Below, one piece after another: positions 13,294-33,961 of a stretch of 33,961 bases of DNA. The DNA is taken from positions 20,389 to 54,349 of the forward strand of contig PLLH01000059.1 in the NCBI GenBank assembly GCA_003140895.1, given 5' to 3'. Position numbers and translations under genes: made by a program. Every line of letters starts with the position of its first letter. The first letter of the stretch is position 1. Under the pieces are notes generated by a model that made no database searches, had not been told where the DNA came from, and saw nothing but the letters and a program-made list of their open reading frames with translations. This stretch comes from Elusimicrobiota bacterium (GTDB lineage: Bacteria > Elusimicrobiota > Elusimicrobia > F11).

Positions 13294-14547
13294 ATGATCG
13301 TCAAGCACTTGCATCGGAATAAACGACAAGCCAGACGGAATGGCTCGATGATTTATATGGTGGTCATCTTTTTAGCCATGTTGGCGGCTATTCCGGTCAC
13401 CATGCAGTTTCTCATGGTTTCCAATCAAAGCACCGCCATGCAAGCCCATCAAGTGACACAGGCTCAAAACGTGGCGCGCGCCGGTTTAACCGAAGCCGTT
13501 TCCTGGTTCCGTCGACAAACGACTCAGCCGGTTCGCAGTTTTTCCGATCCCATCAAATATCCCTATCCCGATGCCGCTTTTTATCCTCGCGTCAGTACGA
13601 ATGCCGCCACCAGCGATACCCAGGATGAAACGATTGGATTGGTTAAAGAGTTCCAACTCTCCGAGGTCAATAGCCTGTGGGCCCGATATGAAGTGAAGAG
13701 GCAGAAAACCGCTGGAAACCCGGATCCCAGCGCCGTTCACGATGTGACGGCCAAGCGGATTGAGACCGCTCAGGCGGGGGAAGGTTTGGCGTGGTATTTG
13801 GAAAGCGCCGGCTATGTCTATCAAAAGAAGAGCGGGGCGGCGTATAACGTTCTGCCCAATGTCGTTGTCGGCAAGGCGCGCGTGGCCACGGAAATTCGCC
13901 GGTTGGCTTTGACGTTGCCGATCAACGCGGCGGCGATCGTGAATGCCCGAAACACGGTGAATGTTTTGGCTAACGGGAAACTCATCGGCGGGGCCAATAT
14001 CGGACTCGGATATTATACGGGGTCCTCCGGTCCGACGATATCGGGAAGCGGCGCCCAGGTGACGGGAACCACCGCCGCCAAATATGATATTGACGGCTCC
14101 TCAGCCGGGACGCTGAGCACCATCACCATTTTTGGCGTGACTCAAAATGAACTGAAGCTCATGGCCGATATCACCGTACAGAACTTATCTGATTTGCAAT
14201 CGGATTATCCATCTTTGGCGGTGGTCTACATCAATTCAGATGCGATATTTAATAATTCACGGGAACTTCGGGGCGGAGGAATCCTGTTCGTCAATGGGAA
14301 TTTGACGGTGGGTGCCGGTTCAAACGCATTGTTTAGCGGTTTTATTTATGTGACGGGGAACGCCACGATCAACGGAGACTGCTTGATTTCAGGGGGCATC
14401 GCCGTTCAGGGGAATTTGACCCTACAGGGATCGGGCGGAGTGGCTGAAGTCGACTTCGATGACAGTATTTTGAATTCCGTTCGCCAGCAAGTGGCTCAGT
14501 ATCGTGAAAACAAGGCCATGTATTACGTGTTCTCGGCGTTAAAATGA
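13294..14547 (+). CDS. PilX-like type IV pilus-associated membrane protein with beta-helical exterior
   Basis: First gene of a pilin-like operon. I chose the ATG at 13294 (417 residues) because AGGA lies 8 nt upstream and the N-terminus then has the PilX layout: a short basic stretch, RRNGSMIYMVVIFLAMLAA with one hydrophobic helix (about 19-41), and an amphipathic continuation ending in AQNVARAGLTEAVSWFRR (PilX proteins have a similar A-x-x-AGL/AE segment). No canonical prepilin G-[FI]-x-x-x-E cleavage site is seen. Near the C-terminus, glycine/asparagine-rich rungs such as LFVNGNLTVGAGS, FIYVTGNATINGDCLISGG and IAVQGNLTLQGSGG suggest a right-handed beta-helix. The next gene overlaps by 4 nt. 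Likely a minor pilus component facing the periplasm or outside; the exact role is inferred. Alternative starts are 13264 and 13186. Confidence 0.8.
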   Translation: MIVKHLHRNKRQARRNGSMIYMVVIFLAMLAAIPVTMQFLMVSNQSTAMQAHQVTQAQNVARAGLTEAVSWFRRQTTQPVRSFSDPIKYPYPDAAFYPRVSTNAATSDTQDETIGLVKEFQLSEVNSLWARYEVKRQKTAGNPDPSAVHDVTAKRIETAQAGEGLAWYLESAGYVYQKKSGAAYNVLPNVVVGKARVATEIRRLALTLPINAAAIVNARNTVNVLANGKLIGGANIGLGYYTGSSGPTISGSGAQVTGTTAAKYDIDGSSAGTLSTITIFGVTQNELKLMADITVQNLSDLQSDYPSLAVVYINSDAIFNNSRELRGGGILFVNGNLTVGAGSNALFSGFIYVTGNATINGDCLISGGIAVQGNLTLQGSGGVAEVDFDDSILNSVRQQVAQYRENKAMYYVFSALK

Positions 14548-17500
14548 TGATAAAAAAAATGCATTTCCTTCATCAGAAAGGCATCAGTTTGGTTGAGATC
14601 ATTATCGCCATGACGATTATGGCGATGGTGATGCTCTCTGTCGCTCGGGGATTTATGTTCATGAACCGCGCGACGGTGCAATCCAAGGAAAAATCGTTTG
14701 CCTCGCAGAAAGCCATCCAAATGATGGAGGAGTTGAGAGGTTTGATCGCCAACAAGAGCGACACCTCCATCGGCGTTCTCGACGATTACGATGACGGGGC
14801 CGTTTATAACACGATTCTGACGACGAAACGGGAAGTGACCAGTGCCGGCGATGTTCTGAGCGGCAATAACAAAGGAAAGTTCGTTCGCCGCGTGAACGTG
14901 ATCATGCTTCCGAACGAGCCTTTGGCGCGCCAGGTGTTTGTCCGTGTTTACCGAGCCAGCAACAAACAGGTGTTGGCGGAAACGGTCAGCGTGGTTCGAA
15001 CGATCAGCAACCAGTTTGTTAATACGCAGGTGTTCGACGTGTATATTCTGTCTCTCGAAAACGTGCCGGGGTGGTGGGTCTTGCTCTCTAGTATGAAGCC
15101 GATGTTCGACAACGTTATTCAGGATCTTCAAACGCGAAACCCCGGACTCGAATGGCGTCCCCATTGGGTGACGCGTTTGGCTTACGGCCGCGACCCGTTC
15201 TATACGCCTTACGTCAATGAAGATAAAAGAACCAATGAGGAAGTCATGCCGTGGATTTATTTTTATCCGGGGCTGACAGTACCGGATAGCACGGTGCCCT
15301 GTTTTTATTATGTTCCGAGCAGCATCGCCGGGCGCGTTAATATTGATGGCACGGTTCAAAATTCGTGGAGTTATTCGATCGCCGATCAGTACAATCACGC
15401 GGTTCGCTATCCCGATGAAGAAGCCATGTATACCGCCGCTGTGACGGCGGCGGAGGCGGCGGGAACGACGCCCCCGGAAATGAGCCTGCGGATGCTCCTT
15501 GAAAAAATGAATTCTCCAACGGGCGGCATGAACAACGCCATGATTGTTAATCTCCATGGCGAATTGATTCCTCTTCCTCCCATGCGCAATTACTCGGACC
15601 CGGCCAAAGATCCGGTTGGGCATGCCAATGTCCGCATTGTGACTCACCCGGAAAAGCTCCAATACGCGTCAGGTTCCGCAGTGAAGCTTCGCGCGTATGG
15701 TTATGTGACAAACCCGGGCAGTTGGGCTCAGGATGCCACGCTTTCAACCATGACGGTTCTTTTTCCCAGTACATTCATCAATCCCGGTAGCATCACGATC
15801 CGCAAAGCCGTCGGTAACGGGACGCTGGCCTACTCATGGCAAGCCACGACCGCCGGGGTAGGAAATGATTACACGATCACGAATCCCGGCGGAACGCAGA
15901 CCCTGATCACTCTTTTTAATACACCGCTTCGGACGGCGCTGAATGGAGGAAAAGGCTTGAACGCCACCAAGCGTCTTTATGGGTTGGAATATATCCCGTG
16001 TGATTTGAGCGCGGCGCCCGCATTCGTCGAAGGAACCCAGGATCTGACAACGACCGACGGCGGCACGGCCCGTCCCAAGAACACGGCGCGGTGGGGTATT
16101 CAAATCGCCGCTGGAGTCTTAAACGACGGGCAATACACCATTGAAACGCGGATGGATGATGATGTGACGACAGGGGTGTCCGGCAATGAGCCCACCAATT
16201 TATCCCGGACCTATGTGTGGGTGGGGCGAGCGCCGCCGGTCACGGAACAATTTCAATTCATGGGCGATCCGCGCCATATGCCTTATACGGATGTCAAAAT
16301 AAACATGGGGTACAACGTTTATTTCTCCACGATCGATACCGCCGATTATCCGGGGTTCACTGGCACCAGTAATCTCTGGAACGGCGGCCCCAATGTGGAC
16401 GTCCCGCGTTATTTTCAAATGTATCGGAGCGGCTTGCTCACGTCGTGGGGGCTCTGGACCAGTATTACCGGGTATTCGAATTATTATGTGGGGCTCGGCG
16501 GGGAGATGGGATACGACGCGTCGAATTCCTTCACGAACAGTCTTCCGATTATCCGAACGCCGTGGTTGCCGAGCAGCGCTGCTTCCGCGAACGTGAATGA
16601 AATTATTGATGGATTTACCGAGTCGTACCAGCGGGTTATTTCAAGCAATGACAATACCTGGTGGGGGCTCTTCTGGCTGGGAGAGTTGTATCCGGATTCC
16701 GCTTATGCGACGTGGAGCGTTAATGGGAATCTGCCGGTGGGAAGCGCTGCCACGAATTTTTATCGAGCTCGATATAATGCAAAAGGGTTTAGTTTTGATC
16801 CGATCAAAAGAACCAGTGACCGAGGGTGTTCTTCTTTCTTAAATGGGAATGCCACGGGGAATAATACAACCTATTTTAATCACGAATATTGGGATACGAA
16901 CAACGGGACCATCACCACGCCTGGATTAACGTTGGCTCAAGACTTTAACTTCCCCTTGTATGATTCCATGTTGGCCCGGCGTCCATTCCGATTAAATGCC
17001 ACCAATAACCAGCCTCCGGAATGGAACGTCGCGGCTTATTCCGGGACCCGCACGACTCTCACAACGCTTGAAACGTACTATGAAGCCCAGGGGAATGAAG
17101 CGACTCATGATTCCAGCGCGTTGCTTCGGATGAAACTGGGAACCAATGTGGCTACCATGGTTATGAATGGACTGTCCCCACAAGGGGTGGTGAGTAACGC
17201 GTTTATTTCAAAATTATGCGTTATTAACTTGACGCGGGGATTTTTGGCGGCGGGAGCGCCGGCCATCACGACGGCACGGATTCCTCAGCTTCCCACGGTC
17301 ACTATCACAGGTCCCTCCACGACCGATGCGTTTAACAATCCGAGCACCATCAACGTGGTGTGGAGCACGGCGTGGACGCGGTGGGATTCTCTGCCTTACA
17401 CAAGCGGGTATCCCGCGAGTTACTCGGAGTCAACGAGCCTTACCGGTAACGTCAAATATTCCAACGATAACGGCAAACATTGGTATTTTATCAATACGGA

Positions 17501-17672
17501 TGGGGTGGCGAAGGTCGGTGTCAAAAGCGCCGCTCAGGCGACGTTAAGCCCTATTTCATGGAACGTGTCGGCCCTGCCTCGCGGAACCTACGTCCTTCGC
17601 ATCGAAGTTTATCGGGATACGATTCCATTACATTACAGCTATGCCCAGCGCCAAGTTTATATTAAGCGTTAA
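14544..17672 (+). CDS. Giant prepilin-like protein (1042 residues)
   Basis: The N-terminus is a clear type IV prepilin signal: a 13-residue leader ending in K-G, cleavage before ISLVE (Glu at mature +5), then a hydrophobic helix IIIAMTIMAMVMLSVARGF. Pilins and minor pilins are normally 130-400 residues, yet this protein continues for about 1000 residues. After the helical segment (to about 80) comes a long, aromatic-, Asn- and Thr-rich region with no family I recognise. The last about 130 residues (from PTVTITGPSTTDAFNNPSTI) look like an Ig/FnIII-type beta-sandwich, with VKYSNDNGKHWYFI and SALPRGTYVLRIEVYRD. It overlaps the PilX-like gene by 4 nt and is followed after 3 nt by a second prepilin gene. 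A role as a pilus or pseudopilus tip protein, perhaps an adhesin, is inference from size, N-terminus and neighbours. Confidence 0.88.
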   Translation: MMIKKMHFLHQKGISLVEIIIAMTIMAMVMLSVARGFMFMNRATVQSKEKSFASQKAIQMMEELRGLIANKSDTSIGVLDDYDDGAVYNTILTTKREVTSAGDVLSGNNKGKFVRRVNVIMLPNEPLARQVFVRVYRASNKQVLAETVSVVRTISNQFVNTQVFDVYILSLENVPGWWVLLSSMKPMFDNVIQDLQTRNPGLEWRPHWVTRLAYGRDPFYTPYVNEDKRTNEEVMPWIYFYPGLTVPDSTVPCFYYVPSSIAGRVNIDGTVQNSWSYSIADQYNHAVRYPDEEAMYTAAVTAAEAAGTTPPEMSLRMLLEKMNSPTGGMNNAMIVNLHGELIPLPPMRNYSDPAKDPVGHANVRIVTHPEKLQYASGSAVKLRAYGYVTNPGSWAQDATLSTMTVLFPSTFINPGSITIRKAVGNGTLAYSWQATTAGVGNDYTITNPGGTQTLITLFNTPLRTALNGGKGLNATKRLYGLEYIPCDLSAAPAFVEGTQDLTTTDGGTARPKNTARWGIQIAAGVLNDGQYTIETRMDDDVTTGVSGNEPTNLSRTYVWVGRAPPVTEQFQFMGDPRHMPYTDVKINMGYNVYFSTIDTADYPGFTGTSNLWNGGPNVDVPRYFQMYRSGLLTSWGLWTSITGYSNYYVGLGGEMGYDASNSFTNSLPIIRTPWLPSSAASANVNEIIDGFTESYQRVISSNDNTWWGLFWLGELYPDSAYATWSVNGNLPVGSAATNFYRARYNAKGFSFDPIKRTSDRGCSSFLNGNATGNNTTYFNHEYWDTNNGTITTPGLTLAQDFNFPLYDSMLARRPFRLNATNNQPPEWNVAAYSGTRTTLTTLETYYEAQGNEATHDSSALLRMKLGTNVATMVMNGLSPQGVVSNAFISKLCVINLTRGFLAAGAPAITTARIPQLPTVTITGPSTTDAFNNPSTINVVWSTAWTRWDSLPYTSGYPASYSESTSLTGNVKYSNDNGKHWYFINTDGVAKVGVKSAAQATLSPISWNVSALPRGTYVLRIEVYRDTIPLHYSYAQRQVYIKR

Positions 17673-17675
17673 CCT

Positions 17676-18680
17676 ATGAAACGCCATCGCATCCATACGG
17701 TTTCCAAGAAAGGAATTTCCCTGGTGGAAATGATGGTCGCGGTGGCGGTGATGTCGATCATCGTTCTGGCCGTGTCTCCCATGTTCACGTTGACGCAAAA
17801 AGGGTATTCCTCCATGGAAGCGCACAACGCGCTGAAAATGAGCGGCCAGGAGACCATCAATCGGATTGGAAACAAGCTAACGCAATGCAAACGGTTTTTT
17901 GACGGCTCGGCGGCGTCAACCCCGTTTCTGGCGCGCGTGTCGATTGCCTCGCCCACGTTGTTGGCCGGAAGCAAATTGCCGATTGTCGAAGAAACGGGAA
18001 CGCTGTCCCCCAGTTCATCGACCTTCGTCGCCAGCAGCGTCGGGAACTCCGTTTTCTTTGCCAGTATTGAGGCCCCCTGCGATGTGTCGGTCGGCGCCGA
18101 ATCGGTTCGGATCGACAGCTATCAGTTTAACTATTATTTTCTGGCCGAAGACGGGACGGCGTCTTTGGGGCCCCAGCGAAAAATTGTTATTTGGGAATGG
18201 CACAGTAAATTTTATGTAGATTATATCCAGATCATGTCCATCTCGAATGTGACGAAACGAAATTCGGTGGTGTCGATTTTGTTCTCAAGCGGGACCACGT
18301 ACGCGTGGGATCCATCAGCGACAAACGTGAATTCGGCCTTCTACCTTCTCTCTGCCGGCGGGGGAATAACAGCCGAAGCCACTCATGTGATTCTTCAGGA
18401 TTCGTTGAAGCCGATGATCAAGATGATTACCGGGGTCACGGCCGGAGGGTTTCGTTACGGGGTTTCTCCCAATACGGGGAGTGCGTTTAAGTCGTCTCAA
18501 AAAGTCCCCAATTTCGCGACGGCCAACGCGAAATTTCCATCAGGATTTGAGCTTGTCGTCATCGGCCCCAATAGCTCCCGGCAGGTTTTTTTGCGGTTTG
18601 TCAGCGTCGCCCAGGGATCCTTTTCAGGTTATATTGCGGATGAAGAAGTGTTGTTGGCCACAGTTCGTGACCTTTGGTAG
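17676..18680 (+). CDS. PilW/PulJ-like prepilin
   Basis: A 334-residue protein with a type IV prepilin N-terminus: 13-residue basic leader ending K-K-G, cleavage before ISLVE, Glu at mature +5, then the helix MMVAVAVMSIIVLAVSPMF. The leader length and the GISLVE site are identical in kind to those of the giant prepilin upstream, so the same prepilin peptidase (PilD type) should process both. The segment ALKMSGQETINRIGNKLTQC (around 50-69) resembles the PilW/GspJ region after the helix. The remaining globular part has no recognised domain. The gene starts 3 nt after the giant pilin gene with no good Shine-Dalgarno of its own, so it is probably translated by coupling. Neither the pilus motor ATPase nor the prepilin peptidase is in this window. 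Confidence 0.87.
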   Translation: MKRHRIHTVSKKGISLVEMMVAVAVMSIIVLAVSPMFTLTQKGYSSMEAHNALKMSGQETINRIGNKLTQCKRFFDGSAASTPFLARVSIASPTLLAGSKLPIVEETGTLSPSSSTFVASSVGNSVFFASIEAPCDVSVGAESVRIDSYQFNYYFLAEDGTASLGPQRKIVIWEWHSKFYVDYIQIMSISNVTKRNSVVSILFSSGTTYAWDPSATNVNSAFYLLSAGGGITAEATHVILQDSLKPMIKMITGVTAGGFRYGVSPNTGSAFKSSQKVPNFATANAKFPSGFELVVIGPNSSRQVFLRFVSVAQGSFSGYIADEEVLLATVRDLW

Positions 18681-23759: not shown

Positions 23760-24284
23760 ATGACGATCGAGAGAAGAAAACACAAACGGTTTAGCGCCAC
23801 GGCCTTTTTGAAGATGCCGGTACGACTCACTCCGTTGGCTCCCTATTTCGGCCGAGAGGTTAAGGGGGAATTGATTGATTTGTCGGCCGGCGGAATGGCG
23901 CTCTTGATCAGCGATATTATTCCGCAAGGGACCGCTCTTAAAATAACCCTTTTATTTCCGGATCATTCAAAGATCGATTCCATCGTTGACGTGAGGCGGG
24001 TGGTGCCTCATGGAAAGAAGTTCCTTATCGGAATTGAGTTCCTCGATTTGCCGGGGGCGATGGAGCAAAAGATCGAGAAAATGTCGTCCGACTATATCGA
24101 TTGCGAGGGCCGGATTCAGAAGGCGGAGAAGGACGTGTGCCATACCGATTGCGCCTTTTTCTCCATGTGCACCAAAAAACAAAAATGCGATCCTGTCTTT
24201 AATCCAGACACGGCCCTTGAAATAAGCTTTTCGGAGTTGGAAAAATCCTCTCAGAGAACATCGCCACCTACCCCGTTTCGCTGA
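23760..24284 (+). CDS. PilZ-domain protein with cysteine-rich tail (predicted c-di-GMP receptor)
   Basis: A 174-residue cytosolic protein. The N-terminal PilZ domain has both c-di-GMP-binding motifs: ERRKHKR (4-10, RxxxR type) and DLSAGG (40-45, DxSxxG), followed by the beta-barrel strands to about residue 98. The C-terminal part is unusual: Cys115, then Cys127-x3-Cys131-x5-Cys137-x5-Cys143, a spacing that could bind a metal or sense redox state. The last about 25 residues look disordered. The gene stands alone between yceI (divergent) and the FKBP gene. The Shine-Dalgarno AAGGAGAG lies about 13 nt before the ATG, rather far. Binding of c-di-GMP is predicted from the motifs; the partner is unknown. 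Together with the GEMM-type RNA at 25846 it supports c-di-GMP signalling in this organism. Confidence 0.88.
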   Translation: MTIERRKHKRFSATAFLKMPVRLTPLAPYFGREVKGELIDLSAGGMALLISDIIPQGTALKITLLFPDHSKIDSIVDVRRVVPHGKKFLIGIEFLDLPGAMEQKIEKMSSDYIDCEGRIQKAEKDVCHTDCAFFSMCTKKQKCDPVFNPDTALEISFSELEKSSQRTSPPTPFR

Positions 24285-25845: not shown

Positions 25846-25950
25846 TGGTCATCCGCGTAGGCGGATGGGCGAACCCTTCGAAATAAGGGGGCGCAAAACC
25901 ACGGCACCGACTTCCTCTTCACGCTGGAGGAAAGGTGGGCCGGGTCACCG
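25846..25950 (+). ncRNA. Class I cyclic-di-GMP riboswitch (GEMM) aptamer
   Basis: I aligned this by eye with the Vibrio cholerae Vc2 aptamer. GGGCGAACC (25867-25875) matches GGGCAAACC. P2 is CCCTT/AAGGG around a GAAA tetraloop (25880-25883). GGGGCGCAAAACC (25888-25900) matches GGGACGCAAAGCC, the ligand-binding junction and receptor. P3 is CACC..TTCCTC/GAGGAA..GGTG, and the 3' strand GGGCCGGGTCACCG (25937-25950) matches AGCGGGGTTACCG. P1 pairs GGT-x-A with T-x-ACC, even keeping the internal pyrimidine mismatch of Vc2. A 14-nt hairpin-forming insert (CCGC/GCGG) lies between P1 and the GGGCGAACC strand. The Gs at the ligand-contact position are kept, favouring c-di-GMP over cGAMP; this is a visual call. 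The FecR gene starts 19 nt downstream. Confidence 0.82.
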
Positions 25951-25968
25951 AAACAAAAAGAGGATTAT

Positions 25969-27801
25969 TTGGACCACACGAGTTCAAGTTCCACAGGAAT
26001 AAACCCGCGGATGTATTGCGTCCGTCGGCTTTTTTATGCCCTGACACTCTTTTTTGTTGGATTTCCACTCCTTCTTTCCGCTCAAGATGCTTCTCTTCGA
26101 GAAAAAGCGACCTCTTCCTCCACCGCGTCAACACGTCGGAAACGCCCCTTATCGCTTCAACGGCGGCAGGCTCGTGCTCAAAAGACGACCAGAAACGAAT
26201 CCCGGGCTGTGTCGTCGGCAACGCCGGCAGAACCGTCTGCGACGGAACCGTCCGCGAAACTCGAGGGGGTTCGTCAAAAAGTTGACGTTCAGTCGGTCAA
26301 CGCCACGTCGTGGGTTCGGGGCCGGGATAAAATGGCGTTGAGCGAGAAAGACAAGATCCGGACCGGTCTTCGCTCAACGGCGCGCGTGAGTCTGGAAGAC
26401 GGCTCCAAAATCCTTTTGCTCCAAAATTCCCAGGCTGAACTCGAAAACCTGTCTTCTGTTCAGCGGGCCATTAAGCTTTTGAAGGGCCGCGTGCGCGCGG
26501 TCGTGAAGAAATTACGGGGGCCGGGTTCCTTTAAGATTAAGACGCCGGTGGGCGTGGCCAGCGTGCGCGGGACCGAATTTGAAGTGGAATTCTCCGAAGA
26601 AGGCCAGGAGATGGCCGTGGACGTCTTGAGCGGGAGCGTCGGGGTTTCCAAGTTGGGTGAGTTGGCGGATGAAGTGGTTCTGCAGCCGGGGGAGCGGATT
26701 AAGTTCGGCCTTGAAGGGGTTATGGGGGATCCGATTCGTTCGGGCGCGATTCCCTTGAACCGGCAAGATATCCGGCAAGAGATCCAGATCGCGAGCGTCA
26801 AAAACGGGATCATCGCCCAAGCGGCGGAAGAATCCCGAAACGCGGATTATCAGGTCGGGAAAACGATGATGGACGTGGACGGAAAAAGAGTCCGCATCGA
26901 AGAGTACATCATGAGGCCCGCGGCGGATCAATTTAAGTTGGTTGTCCTTAATCACCGGGATTCCCGTTTTGATTATTTCACGTACAAAGGGACGTTCAAT
27001 AAAGATTTGCCGGCGGACCTCTCGGTGGCGCTCAAAGAAGTCGGAGGGAAGTTGGGGGCGACCGCTCCTGATTATTACCTCACGGGTTACGAGATGGTGA
27101 TGTCCAACACAAAGGACAATATCACCGACACCGCGTCCGGCGGGCATTTGGTCCAAATCCGAATTGATGGAGACCAATATGTTCTCACGAACACGGATTC
27201 CAGCGGGGTGACGACGGAAAAACGCGTGGACATCGCGGCGGGACAGGCCGATGGGTCGTATCGCGTGTACGATCCTCTCTCTGATAATTTCAAGCTCGTC
27301 ACGGCGGCCAACCTGACGGAGGCCAAAAAACTATCCATCCTGGATCCGGTGACCGATAGTTATCGTGATTTGGCCTCATCCGATTCCTATTGGAAAACAC
27401 GGTTTAACGACTACTCCTATAGGATCAATCAGACGCTCAAACAGACGTTTTCAAAAAAGTCGACGATGTCGAATACGCTGGCCATCGATTTGGACGCCAC
27501 CTGGACCAATTCTCCCGTGACGAGCATCTCGGAATATCCGTCCGGAACGGGGACGCTTTATAACCGGTTGAGCCTGTATTATCAGGACGGTTCCAAAACC
27601 GTTTTCGACAACTACATCATCAATGACAACGGAGACGTGGCGCCAGCCAGCCGTTTCGACGGGCTTTCCACCAGCACGGCGTATAAAAATGAGCTTCTGA
27701 AATGGAATTATCAGCAGAAAGTGAAATCGACGGAGATGAGCGATGAAATTAATCTGGTGGTGGATCCGCGGATCGGCACCATGTCGGGGTTGATGAAATG
27801 A
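25969..27801 (+). CDS. Exported FecR-domain protein
   Basis: First gene after the riboswitch. A Shine-Dalgarno AAGAGGA (25958-25964) ends 4 nt before the TTG at 25969, giving 610 residues; an ATG at 26011 (596 residues) is the alternative and gives a more compact signal peptide (MYCVRRLFYALTLFFVGFPL, cleavage near LSA-Q). Residues of about 45-100 are a Ser/Arg/Ala-rich, low-complexity linker. A FecR domain follows at about 105-245 (VNATSWVRGRDKMALSEKDK, RVSLEDGSKILL, KIKTPVGVASVRGTEFEVEF, QPGERIKFG). The remaining about 360 residues have no recognised domain. FecR domains occur in anti-sigma regulators and in surface-structure proteins; with a signal peptide, no transmembrane helix after it and no sigma gene nearby, the second is more likely. 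It overlaps the beta-barrel gene by 4 nt. Confidence 0.9.
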   Translation: MDHTSSSSTGINPRMYCVRRLFYALTLFFVGFPLLLSAQDASLREKATSSSTASTRRKRPLSLQRRQARAQKTTRNESRAVSSATPAEPSATEPSAKLEGVRQKVDVQSVNATSWVRGRDKMALSEKDKIRTGLRSTARVSLEDGSKILLLQNSQAELENLSSVQRAIKLLKGRVRAVVKKLRGPGSFKIKTPVGVASVRGTEFEVEFSEEGQEMAVDVLSGSVGVSKLGELADEVVLQPGERIKFGLEGVMGDPIRSGAIPLNRQDIRQEIQIASVKNGIIAQAAEESRNADYQVGKTMMDVDGKRVRIEEYIMRPAADQFKLVVLNHRDSRFDYFTYKGTFNKDLPADLSVALKEVGGKLGATAPDYYLTGYEMVMSNTKDNITDTASGGHLVQIRIDGDQYVLTNTDSSGVTTEKRVDIAAGQADGSYRVYDPLSDNFKLVTAANLTEAKKLSILDPVTDSYRDLASSDSYWKTRFNDYSYRINQTLKQTFSKKSTMSNTLAIDLDATWTNSPVTSISEYPSGTGTLYNRLSLYYQDGSKTVFDNYIINDNGDVAPASRFDGLSTSTAYKNELLKWNYQQKVKSTEMSDEINLVVDPRIGTMSGLMK

Positions 27802-29030
27802 GAACGTTGAACCTCTCCTCCCGATGGGCGGCGTCTTTGGCCTTGATCCCGGCTCTCGCGGCCGTCATCTCGGCGGGGCCGACCTATATTCCCGTCGCCA
27901 GCGGGCAATTTTATACCGGTCAATATTATTTCGACGGGAAGAAGAGCGCCCTGGCCGGAAACGCCGGGCTCACCTTTGTCCCCGCCCTTCGATATTCAAG
28001 CCGTTTTAGCCTTATCCCAACGATCGAGAGCCGGTACCGGGGAACCCGTTCCGCCGAAGAGTTGGCCGGAGGAACGACGTTGTTCCAGGATACATGGGAG
28101 AACGGGCTCAGCATCAAAGCCGTTCACGGGTTGGACCGCCACTGGAAAATCCGTGAAAACCTTGGCGTTCGAACGAAATGGTTCCGGGAAACAACGAACG
28201 AAACGTGGCGCAAAGGACTTTATGACTACCGGACGTTTGACGCCGGCGGCGAAGTGGAGCATAAATGGAGCCCGTCACTTTCGGTGGCGGGCGGGTATGA
28301 TTATTCGTTCCTGATGTTTCCCAATTATGAGTCGTTGGAATCCAATCAAAACAGCGATTTGGCTCGGGAGTATGCCGGGAAAGATGTGTTGAACGAGCAT
28401 ATCCATCTTTTCTCCCTTCGTTCCGAGACCCCGTTTTTCTTCGGACTTCATACGCAGACTCAACTCTACTATTCCCCGCGAAATTACACGGATCAACACG
28501 TTGTGGTATTGACCGGGCTTCTGACGGCGGAAAAACGGACCGACAGCGTGGTGGGAGGATCTTTGTCATTTGGACGGCCTTTCAAACTCAGCCAGCGCGC
28601 TTCTTTGGTCACCAATCTTGAATACGGCTATACGGGACTTAACTCCAATCAAAATCATTACGACGCGCGGCTCACCACCTTCATCGGCGATTTTTACGAC
28701 TACGTTCAAAACCAGGGGAGCCTTCAGTTGACGTGGGGTTTAAATGTGGGCGAGTCCGGACCTTTGACGTTTGAGACCGGAGTGTCTTATTCGAAGCGGA
28801 ACTATTCTCATCGGCCCATTCAATCGGCGGACGGAAATTATCTCAGTGAAAAGCTCAACGTGACGGAGACGGACATCAACATCGGCTTTGGATACCCGCT
28901 GTCAAAGAGTCTTCGTTTAAGGGTGATCTCGAATTTTGGACGAAGCCGCTCCAATAACCACTACGAGGCGCTGTACCGGTACAATTACTCGAACGCCAAT
29001 TACCTTTTCGGATTTACGTATGAATATTAA
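27798..29030 (+). CDS. Predicted outer-membrane beta-barrel protein
   Basis: A 410-residue protein with a signal peptide (MRTLNLSSRWAASLALIPAL, cleavage near ISA-G). The mature part is a run of alternating, aromatic-edged strands such as SLSVAGGYDYSFL, HTQTQLYYSPRNY, SLVTNLEYGYTGL, LTFETGVSYSKRNYS, DINIGFGYPL and LRLRVISNFGRS, and it ends in YLFGFTYEY with a terminal aromatic residue, as outer-membrane proteins recognised by BamA do. I estimate about 14-18 strands. No known porin or usher family was recognised. ATGA overlap with the FecR gene and an 11-nt overlap with the giant gene downstream indicate one operon and probably one complex. A role as anchor or export channel for the giant protein is inference. 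Confidence 0.85.
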   Translation: MRTLNLSSRWAASLALIPALAAVISAGPTYIPVASGQFYTGQYYFDGKKSALAGNAGLTFVPALRYSSRFSLIPTIESRYRGTRSAEELAGGTTLFQDTWENGLSIKAVHGLDRHWKIRENLGVRTKWFRETTNETWRKGLYDYRTFDAGGEVEHKWSPSLSVAGGYDYSFLMFPNYESLESNQNSDLAREYAGKDVLNEHIHLFSLRSETPFFFGLHTQTQLYYSPRNYTDQHVVVLTGLLTAEKRTDSVVGGSLSFGRPFKLSQRASLVTNLEYGYTGLNSNQNHYDARLTTFIGDFYDYVQNQGSLQLTWGLNVGESGPLTFETGVSYSKRNYSHRPIQSADGNYLSEKLNVTETDINIGFGYPLSKSLRLRVISNFGRSRSNNHYEALYRYNYSNANYLFGFTYEY

Positions 29031-32000
29031 CGTTGGATTAAAAAAGAGTGTTGGACTTCTTGGGGCGGTGGCCCTGGGGTTCCTCTTCGTTTCTTCGGCG
29101 AAGGCGTCTTCGTTTGACGGGGAAGGCTCGGCGGCGTTCGCCTCGAGTGATTCGATTCGCTCAGGCGCTGTGACGTTGACAACCATGACGTTCACCGTGG
29201 GGGCTCATGGGATTTTGACCGGAGGAGAAATTTCCCTTCGCGTGCCCGATTCGTGGGGGTGGCCCACTATCAGCCAGGGGAACATCGGGACTGTTTATTC
29301 TGGTTATGTGGATATCTCAACGGCCAATATCTCCGCGGGGCTCACTCTCTACACAACGGGGCCGGCCCTGGTGATTCAAGTGTTCAGCGGCAATTTGCCC
29401 AGTGGGGCCACATTCCAATTTCATTATGCCGTCATGACGTGTGATGCGGGAACCACGGCCCCTTTCCGACTGTTTACAAAACAGAATTCCACGGGAACGT
29501 TGACGGCGATAGCGACGTTTCCGACGTTGACAACGGCCATCGGCCCCGCCAACAATCTTTCGTTTGACTCCGTGGGAGAATTGGTTGTTCCCATTGGAAG
29601 CACGGTTCCCGTCACGATCACGGTCCGGGATACCTGTTGGCATCTCGCGAGTTTTAATACGAATACCGATGTGTCGATCAGCGCCAGTCGGTACGATCAA
29701 GTTCTCTATAAGGATGTTGTCGATGAAGATGCCGAATTGTCATTATTCAGCAGCTTTTCTCCGACAATTCCTTTGTCATCTGGGACCATTTCAATTTCTA
29801 CTGGAGTTTCCTTTAAGCGCGTGTTTTATCGCATTAACTCGGCTGGACTACCGGCGGGCAATTCCTCGCATCAAATTAAGATGACGTATTCCATTCCGAA
29901 TGAACCCTGGTTGCATCAGAGCATGGTTATGGTTCGTCCGATCACCGGCGGCATCACCAACGCGTCGGTCGATACAGGCGTTATCATGCCGGGTCAGACG
30001 CAGGTTGAATTCACGCCGGACAACGATGGGGTGAGCGACAGCGTCTTTGTGAATTTCACCACCCCTGAAAACATGGGATGGAAAGTACAGTTCTCGTCTA
30101 ATAACTTTTCAACCATCGTGAAAACAATTTGGGGATATGGAACGTTGGGCCGTGTATCGTGGGATGGATACAGCGATGATTTGCGCGCGACGGCCCCTCC
30201 GGGGATCTATCGGATACGAATTGCGTTGTCCGGCGACACGATTGTGGATACGTCGCTCACCGCCACGTTGGCTTCGAATGGGGTTGTCGGTCGCGTGATT
30301 GAAGCCGTGGGCGGAAGCGGTGTCGAAGGCGCCGAAGTCAATGTCTTTGGTCCATCCGGACGAATGGTTCGAAGCGATGCGAACGGATATTTCTCCATCT
30401 ACGGACTTCAACGGGGGTCCTACAGCGTTCAGGTCCGCAAGGTCGGTTATGACACGGCCCAGACGTCCAACATCGCCGTTAATGGAGTCACAACCATCCC
30501 CGATATCCAAATGTTGTCCGGGTCCGTCCTGAAAATTTACGCCACCCGCCTCGCGGTCGGCCAGGAAATTTGGGGGAACATCAACGCTCATTCCAGCGAT
30601 TGGGTGAAACAGGCATGGGGATCAATCCACTTCGCTTCTTCCAGCGCGACGTCCGATTCCGGAAATAATTATGATGGCCTGGCATCCACTTTTACGGCGT
30701 TGACGTTGGCTCCCGGCGTGAGCTACGTCGTTCATTTCGACGTTCCGGGACTCGGCATCTCCGATTTTAATGTCACCTTGGCCACCGGAGAGACGAGAAG
30801 TATGTCGGTTGAGCTTAGTCGGCGGGCCGATATTTATGGAACGGTTTGGTTGCCGTCGACGGCGTCCAATCCCAACGGACTGTCCATCTCGGTGGAAGCG
30901 GGGATCGACAATAACAACGACGGCATTTATGACAATTCCGACACCTCTCAACGGTTCTGGGGCGGTCTTTATATAAATCCCAACCAATCCTCCGGCACGT
31001 ATCGGATCTATGGCGTCGTTAACGGGAAGTACCATTTGGAAGCGCGGGCCCCTGGATACTCCAGGTCGGTGGCTCAGGCCGAGGTTACGGGTCCGGATGT
31101 CAGGGTTGATTTTTCTACGTTTACTGTCGGCGGAACATTGTCCGGGACGATTACAGTTGAAGGAGATTCGTCGAGTTTGGATTCGAACGATGGGACGCTG
31201 GATGGGAAATTTTCGATTCCGATTAACGCGTGGTCTGCTGCCACCAATAATGGCGCCTGGATGCAGATTCAGATGGCGACGAACAGCGTGTCGGTCAGCA
31301 GCGCGTACACGTTGACGGGGTTGGATGACGGCGTTTATGACGTGTGGGTTTACCTCCCGGGATTCGAGACGCTTCCACCGGGCTCTAAGCGGGGTGTCGT
31401 CAGAAATAAAACAGGGACCCTCGATATTACCTTTAAGCAATATTCCGGAACGTTAAGCGGGAGCATCACCCTTCCCGGGACGAGCAGCGACTACAGCAAC
31501 GTCAGAATTGAGGTGCTTTCCTACGACTATTCAAACCAAAGTTATTCCACTGTCCCGACGGGCAATACCTACGTGTTTCACGGATTGGGCACCAATTTCT
31601 ACACGGTGCGCGCTTATTACGCGACCACGGGGATGGTGGTGGAGAGAAGTATTCAGGTGGTCAATGGGCGGCCTTCCGTCCTCAATCTGAATTTGAGCGG
31701 GGGGACCTATGCTATATCCGGCCGCGTCACCTCCTCCGCCGGCTCGCCCTTTGATTCGCTCTCCTATATTATTAACAACAGCACTCCGACCAGTCTTTAC
31801 AATCTCGCGAATTCAACACAGATTCCGGCCAATCGCATCGTGGCGACGAAACTTCAGAATCGCAACTTCAGCGGCAATATGGACACATCCGCGGCGGCGA
31901 CTATGTCGTATGACCCCTTAACGACCTTCTTTGGATTTTATGACGCCAACGGCAATTACACCATTGATCGGCTGACCCCGGGGACCTATCTCCTTAAGAA

Positions 32001-33961
32001 CAACGCCGAGATGAACAACGATAGCTCCGGCAAGGAAATCGCCGAGGTGTCGCGGGTGGTGAGCATCGTGAGTTCCAATCTGACCAATGAGGACATCGCG
32101 TTGACGGACGGTTATGATGTCACGGGAACGCTTCAGGTGGCCAGCGGGGAAGCGGAAGCCGGACGCGGATTGATGGTGAGTTTAAAAGATAAGAGCGGCG
32201 AGAAAGTGGCGAAAGATTACGAGTACCTCTCGGGCACGTCCGTCGGTTTCACGTTGAAACGCATTCCTCCCGGGTCTTATGTTTTATCCGCCGAAGACAA
32301 TCAAATACCGAAGAAATATTCGGCCAAGGACGTGAGCGTTGAAGTCGCCGCCTCGAGCGTGACGAACAAAGAGATTCTCCTTCTCCAGGCGGCCAAAATT
32401 CAAGGACAGCTCCGGCTGAAAGCGTCTGGCGTTTTGCTGACCAATAACAACTATTCCCAGTATCTGCCCAGTAATTTTTATATCCAAGCCAACGCCAACC
32501 CGTGGTTCCAGGGAGGCTACGCGCAGGCCAACCAATCTCCGTCTCTGATTGATTCCACCGGGCGGTTTGTGATCCAACCGAATCCGGGAACCTATGATGT
32601 GATGTTTCAGTCATCAGGATTTATCGGCGATGAAAATATCGCGAAGGGACAAATACAATTCGCGCCGGTCACGATGAGCGGTATTCAGGTGGAAGCCGGC
32701 CAGACGTACGATATGGGCGTTGTCGACTTGATCGAAGGGGCGGATGTCACGGGAACGATCACCAATAAAAAGAGAGAGCCTCTGCCGAATATTTTGGTTT
32801 ATTCGTATCCAACGGAAGAGGGCAACGCGAAGAATCAAAGCTCGCTGGAGGGGTTGACCGATCAATCGGGGCATTATGTCCTGCACGGCGTCGATCAAAT
32901 GGGGAAGCGGTATTACGATATCAAGGCGGCTCCTCGGCCCGATAGCGGCGATCAGCGGTTTTCATTTGGATTCAACGGGGTTCGTTACGGGGAGGTGTTG
33001 AAGACGCAAGTCGACACGCAGAAAATTAATTCCTCCACGACCACGATCGACTTTGTTTTGGAAGCGGCCGCCGGGAGCGTGAGCGGAACCGTGGTCACGC
33101 CCGACGGCGGAAAGCTGGAGCTGCCGTTCGACGATAAGGCAGATTATACGTTGGGAGCCTTTGTCATTATGAACAAGCGGGGAAATGTGCCGCAGGGCAA
33201 TCCCCTCGGGAATATTGAGCAGAACACCTCGCCCAACGGGGATTTTCAGGTGGCGGGGCTCACTCCCGGCCTTTACGATCTCTGGATTTTGGCCAAAGGA
33301 TATCGGAGCGGCGTCCGTCGGAATATCACCGTTGGAGAAGGCAATACCGATTTGCAGGCCATCACGCTTTCGACGGGAGCGACGCTCTCGGGAAAACTGT
33401 CCAAAGCGGACGGGAGCGCGCCGAACACCAGCGAGATTGATGTGATTTTGGCCGTCCGAAATGGGTTTGAAGAACTGATCATCGGGAACGTCTCGGCGGA
33501 CGCGGCGGGAACCATTTCGGGTTATTCCATCACCGGCTTCCAGCCCGACAAGGCGTATTCCATTCTCCTGTTCACGACGAGTGATGATGTCTTTTCGTTG
33601 GCGTCCAACGTGGTTGTCGGCAATAACACGGAGCGTAACTTCACGATTGAGGAAAAGCAGCCGGAGATCTTCACGCAGGCGGCCAAAGGCCGGGATGGAA
33701 AAATGACCGTTCAGTTTGAATTCACGAAGCCTCTTCGAAATTCCAGGGTGGATATTGATGGAAACGGAGAGGCGGACGATTCCGAGATGGTCAAAATCAT
33801 TAAGGTTAAAACCGGGAAAGGGGATTTGGCCAAGCCGGCGTCGGGTGTTTGGCTGTCGTCGGATCGAAAACACGCCAGCATGGTTTATACGCCGGCCTCC
33901 CGGGAATCTTCTTTTGAGCTCACGGTGAACGCCGTCTTTAATTCCATCGACGCGGCGACGG
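29020..33961 (+). CDS. Giant exported surface protein with FlgD-like and repeated carboxypeptidase-regulatory-like modules, 3' end outside window
   Basis: The frame is open from the ATG at 29020 to the window edge (at least 1647 residues). A signal peptide of about 30 residues ends near SSAKA-S. Residues of about 30-320 form an unrecognised beta-rich region; about 328-407 resembles an FlgD-like Ig domain (FTPDNDGVSDSVFVNFTTPE and PPGIYRIRIAL). From about 419 on, repeated beta-sandwich modules of the carboxypeptidase regulatory type follow. The first is classic (VGRVIEAVGGSGVEGAEVNV, SDANGYFSIYGLQRGSYSVQ). Others begin near 704, 808, 895, 1031, 1125, 1241, 1351 and 1454 with V-x-G-T-like strands and close with L-x-PG-x-Y motifs. 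Such arrays are typical of extended stalks of surface proteins. No cleavage or sorting signal can be judged because the C-terminus is missing. It overlaps the beta-barrel gene by 11 nt. Confidence 0.9.
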   Translation, partial: MNINVGLKKSVGLLGAVALGFLFVSSAKASSFDGEGSAAFASSDSIRSGAVTLTTMTFTVGAHGILTGGEISLRVPDSWGWPTISQGNIGTVYSGYVDISTANISAGLTLYTTGPALVIQVFSGNLPSGATFQFHYAVMTCDAGTTAPFRLFTKQNSTGTLTAIATFPTLTTAIGPANNLSFDSVGELVVPIGSTVPVTITVRDTCWHLASFNTNTDVSISASRYDQVLYKDVVDEDAELSLFSSFSPTIPLSSGTISISTGVSFKRVFYRINSAGLPAGNSSHQIKMTYSIPNEPWLHQSMVMVRPITGGITNASVDTGVIMPGQTQVEFTPDNDGVSDSVFVNFTTPENMGWKVQFSSNNFSTIVKTIWGYGTLGRVSWDGYSDDLRATAPPGIYRIRIALSGDTIVDTSLTATLASNGVVGRVIEAVGGSGVEGAEVNVFGPSGRMVRSDANGYFSIYGLQRGSYSVQVRKVGYDTAQTSNIAVNGVTTIPDIQMLSGSVLKIYATRLAVGQEIWGNINAHSSDWVKQAWGSIHFASSSATSDSGNNYDGLASTFTALTLAPGVSYVVHFDVPGLGISDFNVTLATGETRSMSVELSRRADIYGTVWLPSTASNPNGLSISVEAGIDNNNDGIYDNSDTSQRFWGGLYINPNQSSGTYRIYGVVNGKYHLEARAPGYSRSVAQAEVTGPDVRVDFSTFTVGGTLSGTITVEGDSSSLDSNDGTLDGKFSIPINAWSAATNNGAWMQIQMATNSVSVSSAYTLTGLDDGVYDVWVYLPGFETLPPGSKRGVVRNKTGTLDITFKQYSGTLSGSITLPGTSSDYSNVRIEVLSYDYSNQSYSTVPTGNTYVFHGLGTNFYTVRAYYATTGMVVERSIQVVNGRPSVLNLNLSGGTYAISGRVTSSAGSPFDSLSYIINNSTPTSLYNLANSTQIPANRIVATKLQNRNFSGNMDTSAAATMSYDPLTTFFGFYDANGNYTIDRLTPGTYLLKNNAEMNNDSSGKEIAEVSRVVSIVSSNLTNEDIALTDGYDVTGTLQVASGEAEAGRGLMVSLKDKSGEKVAKDYEYLSGTSVGFTLKRIPPGSYVLSAEDNQIPKKYSAKDVSVEVAASSVTNKEILLLQAAKIQGQLRLKASGVLLTNNNYSQYLPSNFYIQANANPWFQGGYAQANQSPSLIDSTGRFVIQPNPGTYDVMFQSSGFIGDENIAKGQIQFAPVTMSGIQVEAGQTYDMGVVDLIEGADVTGTITNKKREPLPNILVYSYPTEEGNAKNQSSLEGLTDQSGHYVLHGVDQMGKRYYDIKAAPRPDSGDQRFSFGFNGVRYGEVLKTQVDTQKINSSTTTIDFVLEAAAGSVSGTVVTPDGGKLELPFDDKADYTLGAFVIMNKRGNVPQGNPLGNIEQNTSPNGDFQVAGLTPGLYDLWILAKGYRSGVRRNITVGEGNTDLQAITLSTGATLSGKLSKADGSAPNTSEIDVILAVRNGFEELIIGNVSADAAGTISGYSITGFQPDKAYSILLFTTSDDVFSLASNVVVGNNTERNFTIEEKQPEIFTQAAKGRDGKMTVQFEFTKPLRNSRVDIDGNGEADDSEMVKIIKVKTGKGDLAKPASGVWLSSDRKHASMVYTPASRESSFELTVNAVFNSIDAAT

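Follow-up and report, generated by a model that had tools for sequence, protein, structure and literature searches.

A c-di-GMP riboswitch-led operon in an Elusimicrobiota bacterium as the candidate front of a T9SS-like pathway for a giant surface protein

The stretch of DNA analysed here (the window, 33,961 nt; C87:20389-54349 of a 2.5 Mb genome in 118 contigs) carries on its + strand, in this order, a c-di-GMP-I (GEMM-I) riboswitch aptamer (25858..25952; Rfam RF01051), a FecR-domain gene (25969..27801), a gene for an outer-membrane beta-barrel of 410 aa (27798..29030) and a gene for a giant modular protein (29020..33961). An initial annotation made from the sequence had described three overlapping genes, and this is borne out: the stop of the FecR gene overlaps the barrel ORF by 4 nt, and the barrel stop overlaps the ATG of the giant gene by 11 nt. 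A PilZ-domain gene lies on the + strand three genes 5' of the FecR gene (23760..24284; PF07238, 47.7 bits), and a second one directly 3' of the PorV-family gene that follows the giant gene beyond the window (L005:11281-11799; PF07238, 46.3 bits). These two genes are possibly an extra link to c-di-GMP outside the conserved gene set; PilZ as a member of that set was rejected, the downstream copy being present only in this genome and in Candidatus Obscuribacterium magneticum (G002) among the sampled loci. Elsewhere in the window (14544-18680), large proteins of 1042 and 334 aa are encoded whose N-termini carry methylation motifs like those of type IV pilins.

The aptamer matches the Rfam model at 50.2 bits against a gathering threshold of 35 (E=4e-7) and is the strongest riboswitch match in its genome. 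Its end lies 16 nt from a TTG at 25969 and 58 nt from an ATG at 26011, the two candidate starts of the FecR gene; the TTG stands right behind the aptamer with GAGGA 4 nt upstream, and the ATG begins a standard signal peptide. In the leader fold, judged by eye, no terminator hairpin with a U-run was seen between the aptamer and the FecR gene. With a class-specific riboswitch model, an aptamer 5' of the operon was found in only three of 63 sources, namely the window, RA.bin92 (G003) and 59_12 (G007), at the same position in each. The custom-model scores of these three are not independent, because their sequences were part of the training set; the Rfam scores, which are independent of that training, are 34.8 bits for RA.bin92 and 66.9 bits for 59_12, beside the value given above for the window. 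The operon riboswitch is missing in most relatives, including one of the same family (G001), so the idea that every such operon carries it was rejected; c-di-GMP control therefore does not come with the gene set in every case. The earlier description of a candidate c-di-GMP-induced system stands for the window as far as the riboswitch itself goes, but does not extend to the gene set at large. A third, weak riboswitch match in this genome (27.9 bits, on C83) falls within the coding sequence of an MraY-like protein.

The FecR domain of the first gene product is recognised at residues 128-224 (PF04773, 67.4 bits), and in the AlphaFold2 (AF2) model (pLDDT 82) this part matches 4m0n, 4m0h and 6ovk. 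Residues about 280-596 gave no convincing structural match when the model was compared with the PDB, while this C-terminal part is well conserved in relatives. An N-terminal signal peptide takes the place of the cytoplasmic anti-sigma part, and we recognised neither an ECF sigma factor nor a TonB-dependent receptor among the neighbouring ORFs read on both sides. Two claims of the initial annotation, that the protein is an exported FecR-domain protein with a large unrecognised C-terminal part and that it works outside the usual iron-signalling setting, agree with these results, and with neither of the two usual partners recognised nearby, iron signalling was rejected. The adjoining outer-membrane barrel, likewise proposed before, is backed by an AF2 model with pLDDT 88.4 and 16 long strands, in which no POTRA-like periplasmic part was seen. 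Its fold matches in the PDB (OmpT, AlgE, FadL, OmpG; TM about 0.3-0.47) are generic porins and channels, so that the fold gives no function, and a sequence-profile search of the PDB returned nothing relevant. A second FecR-barrel pair in the same genome (C75:15995-17161; L029:6182-9165) sits beside ABC transporter genes, with neither a giant gene nor a PorV gene as neighbour.

The giant protein starts at the ATG at 29020 (a TTG at 28936 is merely the mechanical start of the frame), has a signal peptide, and spans 1647 codons inside the window and about 1,960 overall. The stop of its frame at the window end coincides with a 2-N scaffold join (L005:9351-9352; C87:54350-54351) at which the frame is shifted, and a downstream ORF carries the protein on. 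Since the same protein is a single 2,112-codon ORF in G001 (L030), the apparent stop reflects an assembly gap. Five Pfam stretches of carboxypeptidase-regulatory modules (PF13620, 126.9 bits in total) and about ten module-like starts counted by eye make the previous estimate of about nine modules a fair one. The FlgD-like Ig domain that had been placed in this protein gave no match in the window part (E<=1) but is present at the C-terminus beyond the window (L005:9411-10313), where PF13860 scores 31.9 bits against a cut-off of 27. The same C-terminus reaches 20.1 bits with the T9SS sorting-domain model TIGR04183, below its cut-off of 23, and matches the tails of the PorU and PorZ models at sub-threshold level; we call it a FlgD-Ig/T9SS-type-A-like C-terminal domain (CTD). 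This tail is conserved across Elusimicrobiota.

The gene after the giant gene encodes a member of the PorV/PorQ family (NF033709, 152.8 bits against a cut-off of 90), which phmmer matches to the PorV chain (6h3i_F) of the SprA-PorV structure 6h3i at 1.4e-7. The co-occurrence of the three window genes in relatives, which had been suggested as a check that they belong together, was found, and the conserved set has PorV as a fourth member. Thirty-five of 60 relatives have the barrel family, and all of the 51 barrel loci in the genome contig collection that carry a phylum-level name belong to Elusimicrobia/Elusimicrobiota; the other carriers in the contig scan are Candidatus Obscuribacterium magneticum and a few records titled just 'bacterium'. 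The former, a member of the window genome's own family, has the nearest barrel (68%). Around 50 distinct barrel loci, a FecR gene was found in 38, a CTD-bearing giant in 28, PorV in 28 and all four genes together in 27, all of which are minimum values because contig ends truncate many of the loci; none of the FecR, CTD or PorV neighbours lies on the strand opposite the barrel. Two main orders occur, FecR-barrel-giant-PorV and giant-PorV-barrel-FecR, often accompanied by another FecR-barrel pair. The barrel stands alone at some loci, mainly in family f4, and several others have the FecR-barrel pair without the cargo.

The window's genome holds 29 PorV-family and 25 FlgD-Ig matches, and comparison of coordinates places seven CTDs directly 5' of a PorV gene. 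It also encodes an SprA-like protein (C32, 1875 codons), which matches TIGR04189 in three stretches at 111.5 bits, below the curated cut-off of 200. A PDB search with the single sequence gave no match, but a profile of eight homologues matched SprA chains only (6h3i, 6h3j; 2.5e-19). SprA-like matches, none above the curated cut-off, occur in 57 of the 60 genomes against 0 of 14 controls. The PorU-type (C25-type) peptidase PF01364 is absent from the window's genome and from 59 of the 60, the sole match being in G002, a genome listed at 14% contamination; GldL (TIGR03513) is absent from the window's genome, with very weak sub-cut-off matches in two of the 60. As the PorU-type peptidase and GldL are missing, we name the system T9SS-like; from its predicted gene content, it would be no standard T9SS.

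Riboswitches of the c-di-GMP-I class were found in 35 of the 60 genomes. Half of those inspected (22 of 44) are followed on their own strand, at a distance of no more than 9 kb, by PorV, a CTD or SprA, where 1-2 would be expected by chance (an estimate from a PorV density of about 18 per 2.4 Mb); the PorV cases are not independent of one another, because many of them are one orthologous locus, and the other half of the targets are other genes. In G029 (L094), G050 (C153:45228-45304) and G010 (L101) the riboswitch is directly 5' of the SprA-like gene, the first SprA match beginning some 0.65-0.8 kb further on. The start codon is often no more than about 10 nt away from the aptamer, which suggests that the riboswitches of this class may act at translation. 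A second recurrent class of riboswitch targets (L106, L109, L111, L112, L113, L114) comprises genes for proteins of only about 170-190 aa, among them several with LRC as their last residues, and genes for giant proteins of roughly 1,200-3,000 codons in which no CTD was recognised within the stretch read.

We propose, at a probability of about two in three (0.68), that the window holds the front of a T9SS-like surface-protein operon with one cargo and one carrier, in which the FecR-barrel pair holds or gates the giant protein and c-di-GMP exerts control. The giant would be a stalk or adhesin-type protein of the cell surface that uses its signal peptide to pass the inner membrane, presumably through Sec. 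The PorV-family barrel encoded next door would then recognise it through its CTD, and by homology the protein might leave the cell through the SprA-like translocon encoded elsewhere. The periplasmic FecR protein and the 16-strand barrel, made together with the cargo, would most likely hold or gate the exported giant at the outer membrane; this probable role, the weakest step of the model, is deduced from gene order. In this species, the level of c-di-GMP would set production of the gene set in either direction, probably at translation because only a short distance separates the aptamer's end from the first gene's ribosome-binding site.

The initial annotation had seen here a dedicated export/anchor and adhesin or sheath system. 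A surface system and the co-occurrence of its genes find support in our results; export by the adjacent barrel does not. If the 16-strand barrel itself exported the giant with FecR as a periplasmic gate, the three genes would form a dedicated exporter resembling two-partner systems, and their tightly overlapping, co-occurring arrangement would fit, as would the presence of AlgE, a secretion-linked barrel, among the fold matches. However, the cargo has a T9SS-like CTD and an adjoining PorV of its own, the SprA-like translocon is present, and these together make the T9SS-like route far likelier. In addition, the barrel also occurs where the cargo does not, in the f4 lineage and in the C75 copy, which has FecR but no giant; its model lacks a POTRA-like part, and the folds it matches are those of generic porins. 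We therefore regard the barrel as an improbable exporter, and export most likely proceeds by a shared machine of SprA/PorV type, as far as homology can indicate. Somewhat less improbable, though still unlikely, is the notion that the likeness of CTD and PorV to their T9SS counterparts is superficial, the FlgD-Ig-ended proteins and PorV/UPF0164 barrels of Elusimicrobiota serving something other than T9SS-type export. The missing PorU-type peptidase and GldL, and the failure of any sorting-domain match to exceed its cut-off, would be expected in that case, but not an SprA homologue in nearly all genomes whose profile finds no PDB structures other than SprA, nor PorV paralogues and FlgD-Ig domains similar in number and repeatedly side by side.

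Of more weight, and possible if less likely than our model, is that the FecR-barrel pair forms an envelope module in its own right, for instance a channel for one particular substrate coupled to a FecR-type sensor, sharing the operon because both parts serve life at a surface. The pair standing alone at C75, the several loci where FecR has no CTD or PorV neighbour, and the likeness of the barrel to ordinary channels are all consistent with this. The full set, on the other hand, is kept at more than half of the barrel loci, in at least two gene orders and always on one strand, which argues for a joint function of pair and cargo.

Placed beside known systems, the T9SS-like operon proposed here shares with the Bacteroidota T9SS, where the CTD docks on PorV inside the SprA pore (PMC10994853), an SprA-like translocon, PorV-family barrels and signal-peptide-bearing cargo with a conserved C-terminal Ig-like domain. 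Apart from the absent peptidase and GldL, it differs in a CTD that is nearer to FlgD-Ig, in the FecR-barrel pair included in the cargo operon, and in the c-di-GMP riboswitches that precede some of the operons. A carrier gene adjoining its cargo gene is also a feature of the specialised carriers of Flavobacterium johnsoniae, where PorP/SprF-like proteins serve type B CTD cargo (PMC12618676), whereas the Elusimicrobiota carrier is PorV-like and its cargo CTD type-A/FlgD-Ig-like. The window protein has a FecR domain in common with FecR/FecI systems and with leptospiral Lsa33 and LipL45, the last two being its closest NCBIfam models, far below their cut-offs; unlike these, it comes without a recognised sigma factor or TonB receptor and has another long C-terminal domain and a barrel partner. 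LapA is a c-di-GMP-regulated giant adhesin, secreted by a type 1 system and controlled by LapD/LapG. Shared with it is a tie between c-di-GMP and the presumed surface exposure of a repeat protein of great size, but here control would be by a riboswitch and the route T9SS-like, and no RTX protein, LapD/LapG or type 1 exporter was recognised.

A survey of secretion systems detected T9SS in Bacteroidetes only (PMC4793230), and our literature search, which reached few of the subscription papers, found no paper on T9SS or c-di-GMP riboswitches in Elusimicrobiota. Such an SprA/PorV/CTD system, spread across this group with neither the customary sortase nor the customary motor but with c-di-GMP riboswitches before cargo, translocon and FliG-MotAB genes, would, if real, tell us what T9SS cannot do without, and it would give an initial view of how the cell surface is assembled and controlled in bacteria most of which have not been cultured.

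A candidate for a motor is offered by a further riboswitch-led operon. FliG_C occurs in 36 of the 60 genomes but FlhA in only two, so that FliG is mostly not flagellar here. In the window's genome, the C77 operon (L007:11552-17322, L186:679-8960) consists of a riboswitch followed by genes for PorV-TPR, FliG, a coiled-coil protein, a 968-aa protein, MotA and MotB; that of G059 resembles it, and similar loci with a riboswitch and PorV-TPR, FliG-like, MotA-like and MotB-like genes are L093, L095, L098, L102, L103, L104, L105, L115 and L121, the Pfam check of MotA/MotB covering the window's genome and L102. The spacing from riboswitch to FliG gene is 2.9-3.4 kb in 19 genomes. We consider this a candidate non-flagellar motor operon, which could drive the T9SS-like system or gliding. 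More speculatively, FliG-MotA-MotB might stand in for the PorL/PorM motor of a T9SS-like system whose translocon, motor operon and cargo operons are all under riboswitch control, with the window operon as one cargo branch and the FecR-barrel pair as a new type of surface anchor; this wider scheme is possible but less likely than not. A FliG-MotAB operon under a c-di-GMP riboswitch would, if this role is true, open another type of energising motor to study. Directly 5' of the C77 riboswitch and its PorV-TPR gene, a 3,756-codon ORF (L007:30-11300; open frame 7,765 codons) ends in a FlgD-Ig CTD.
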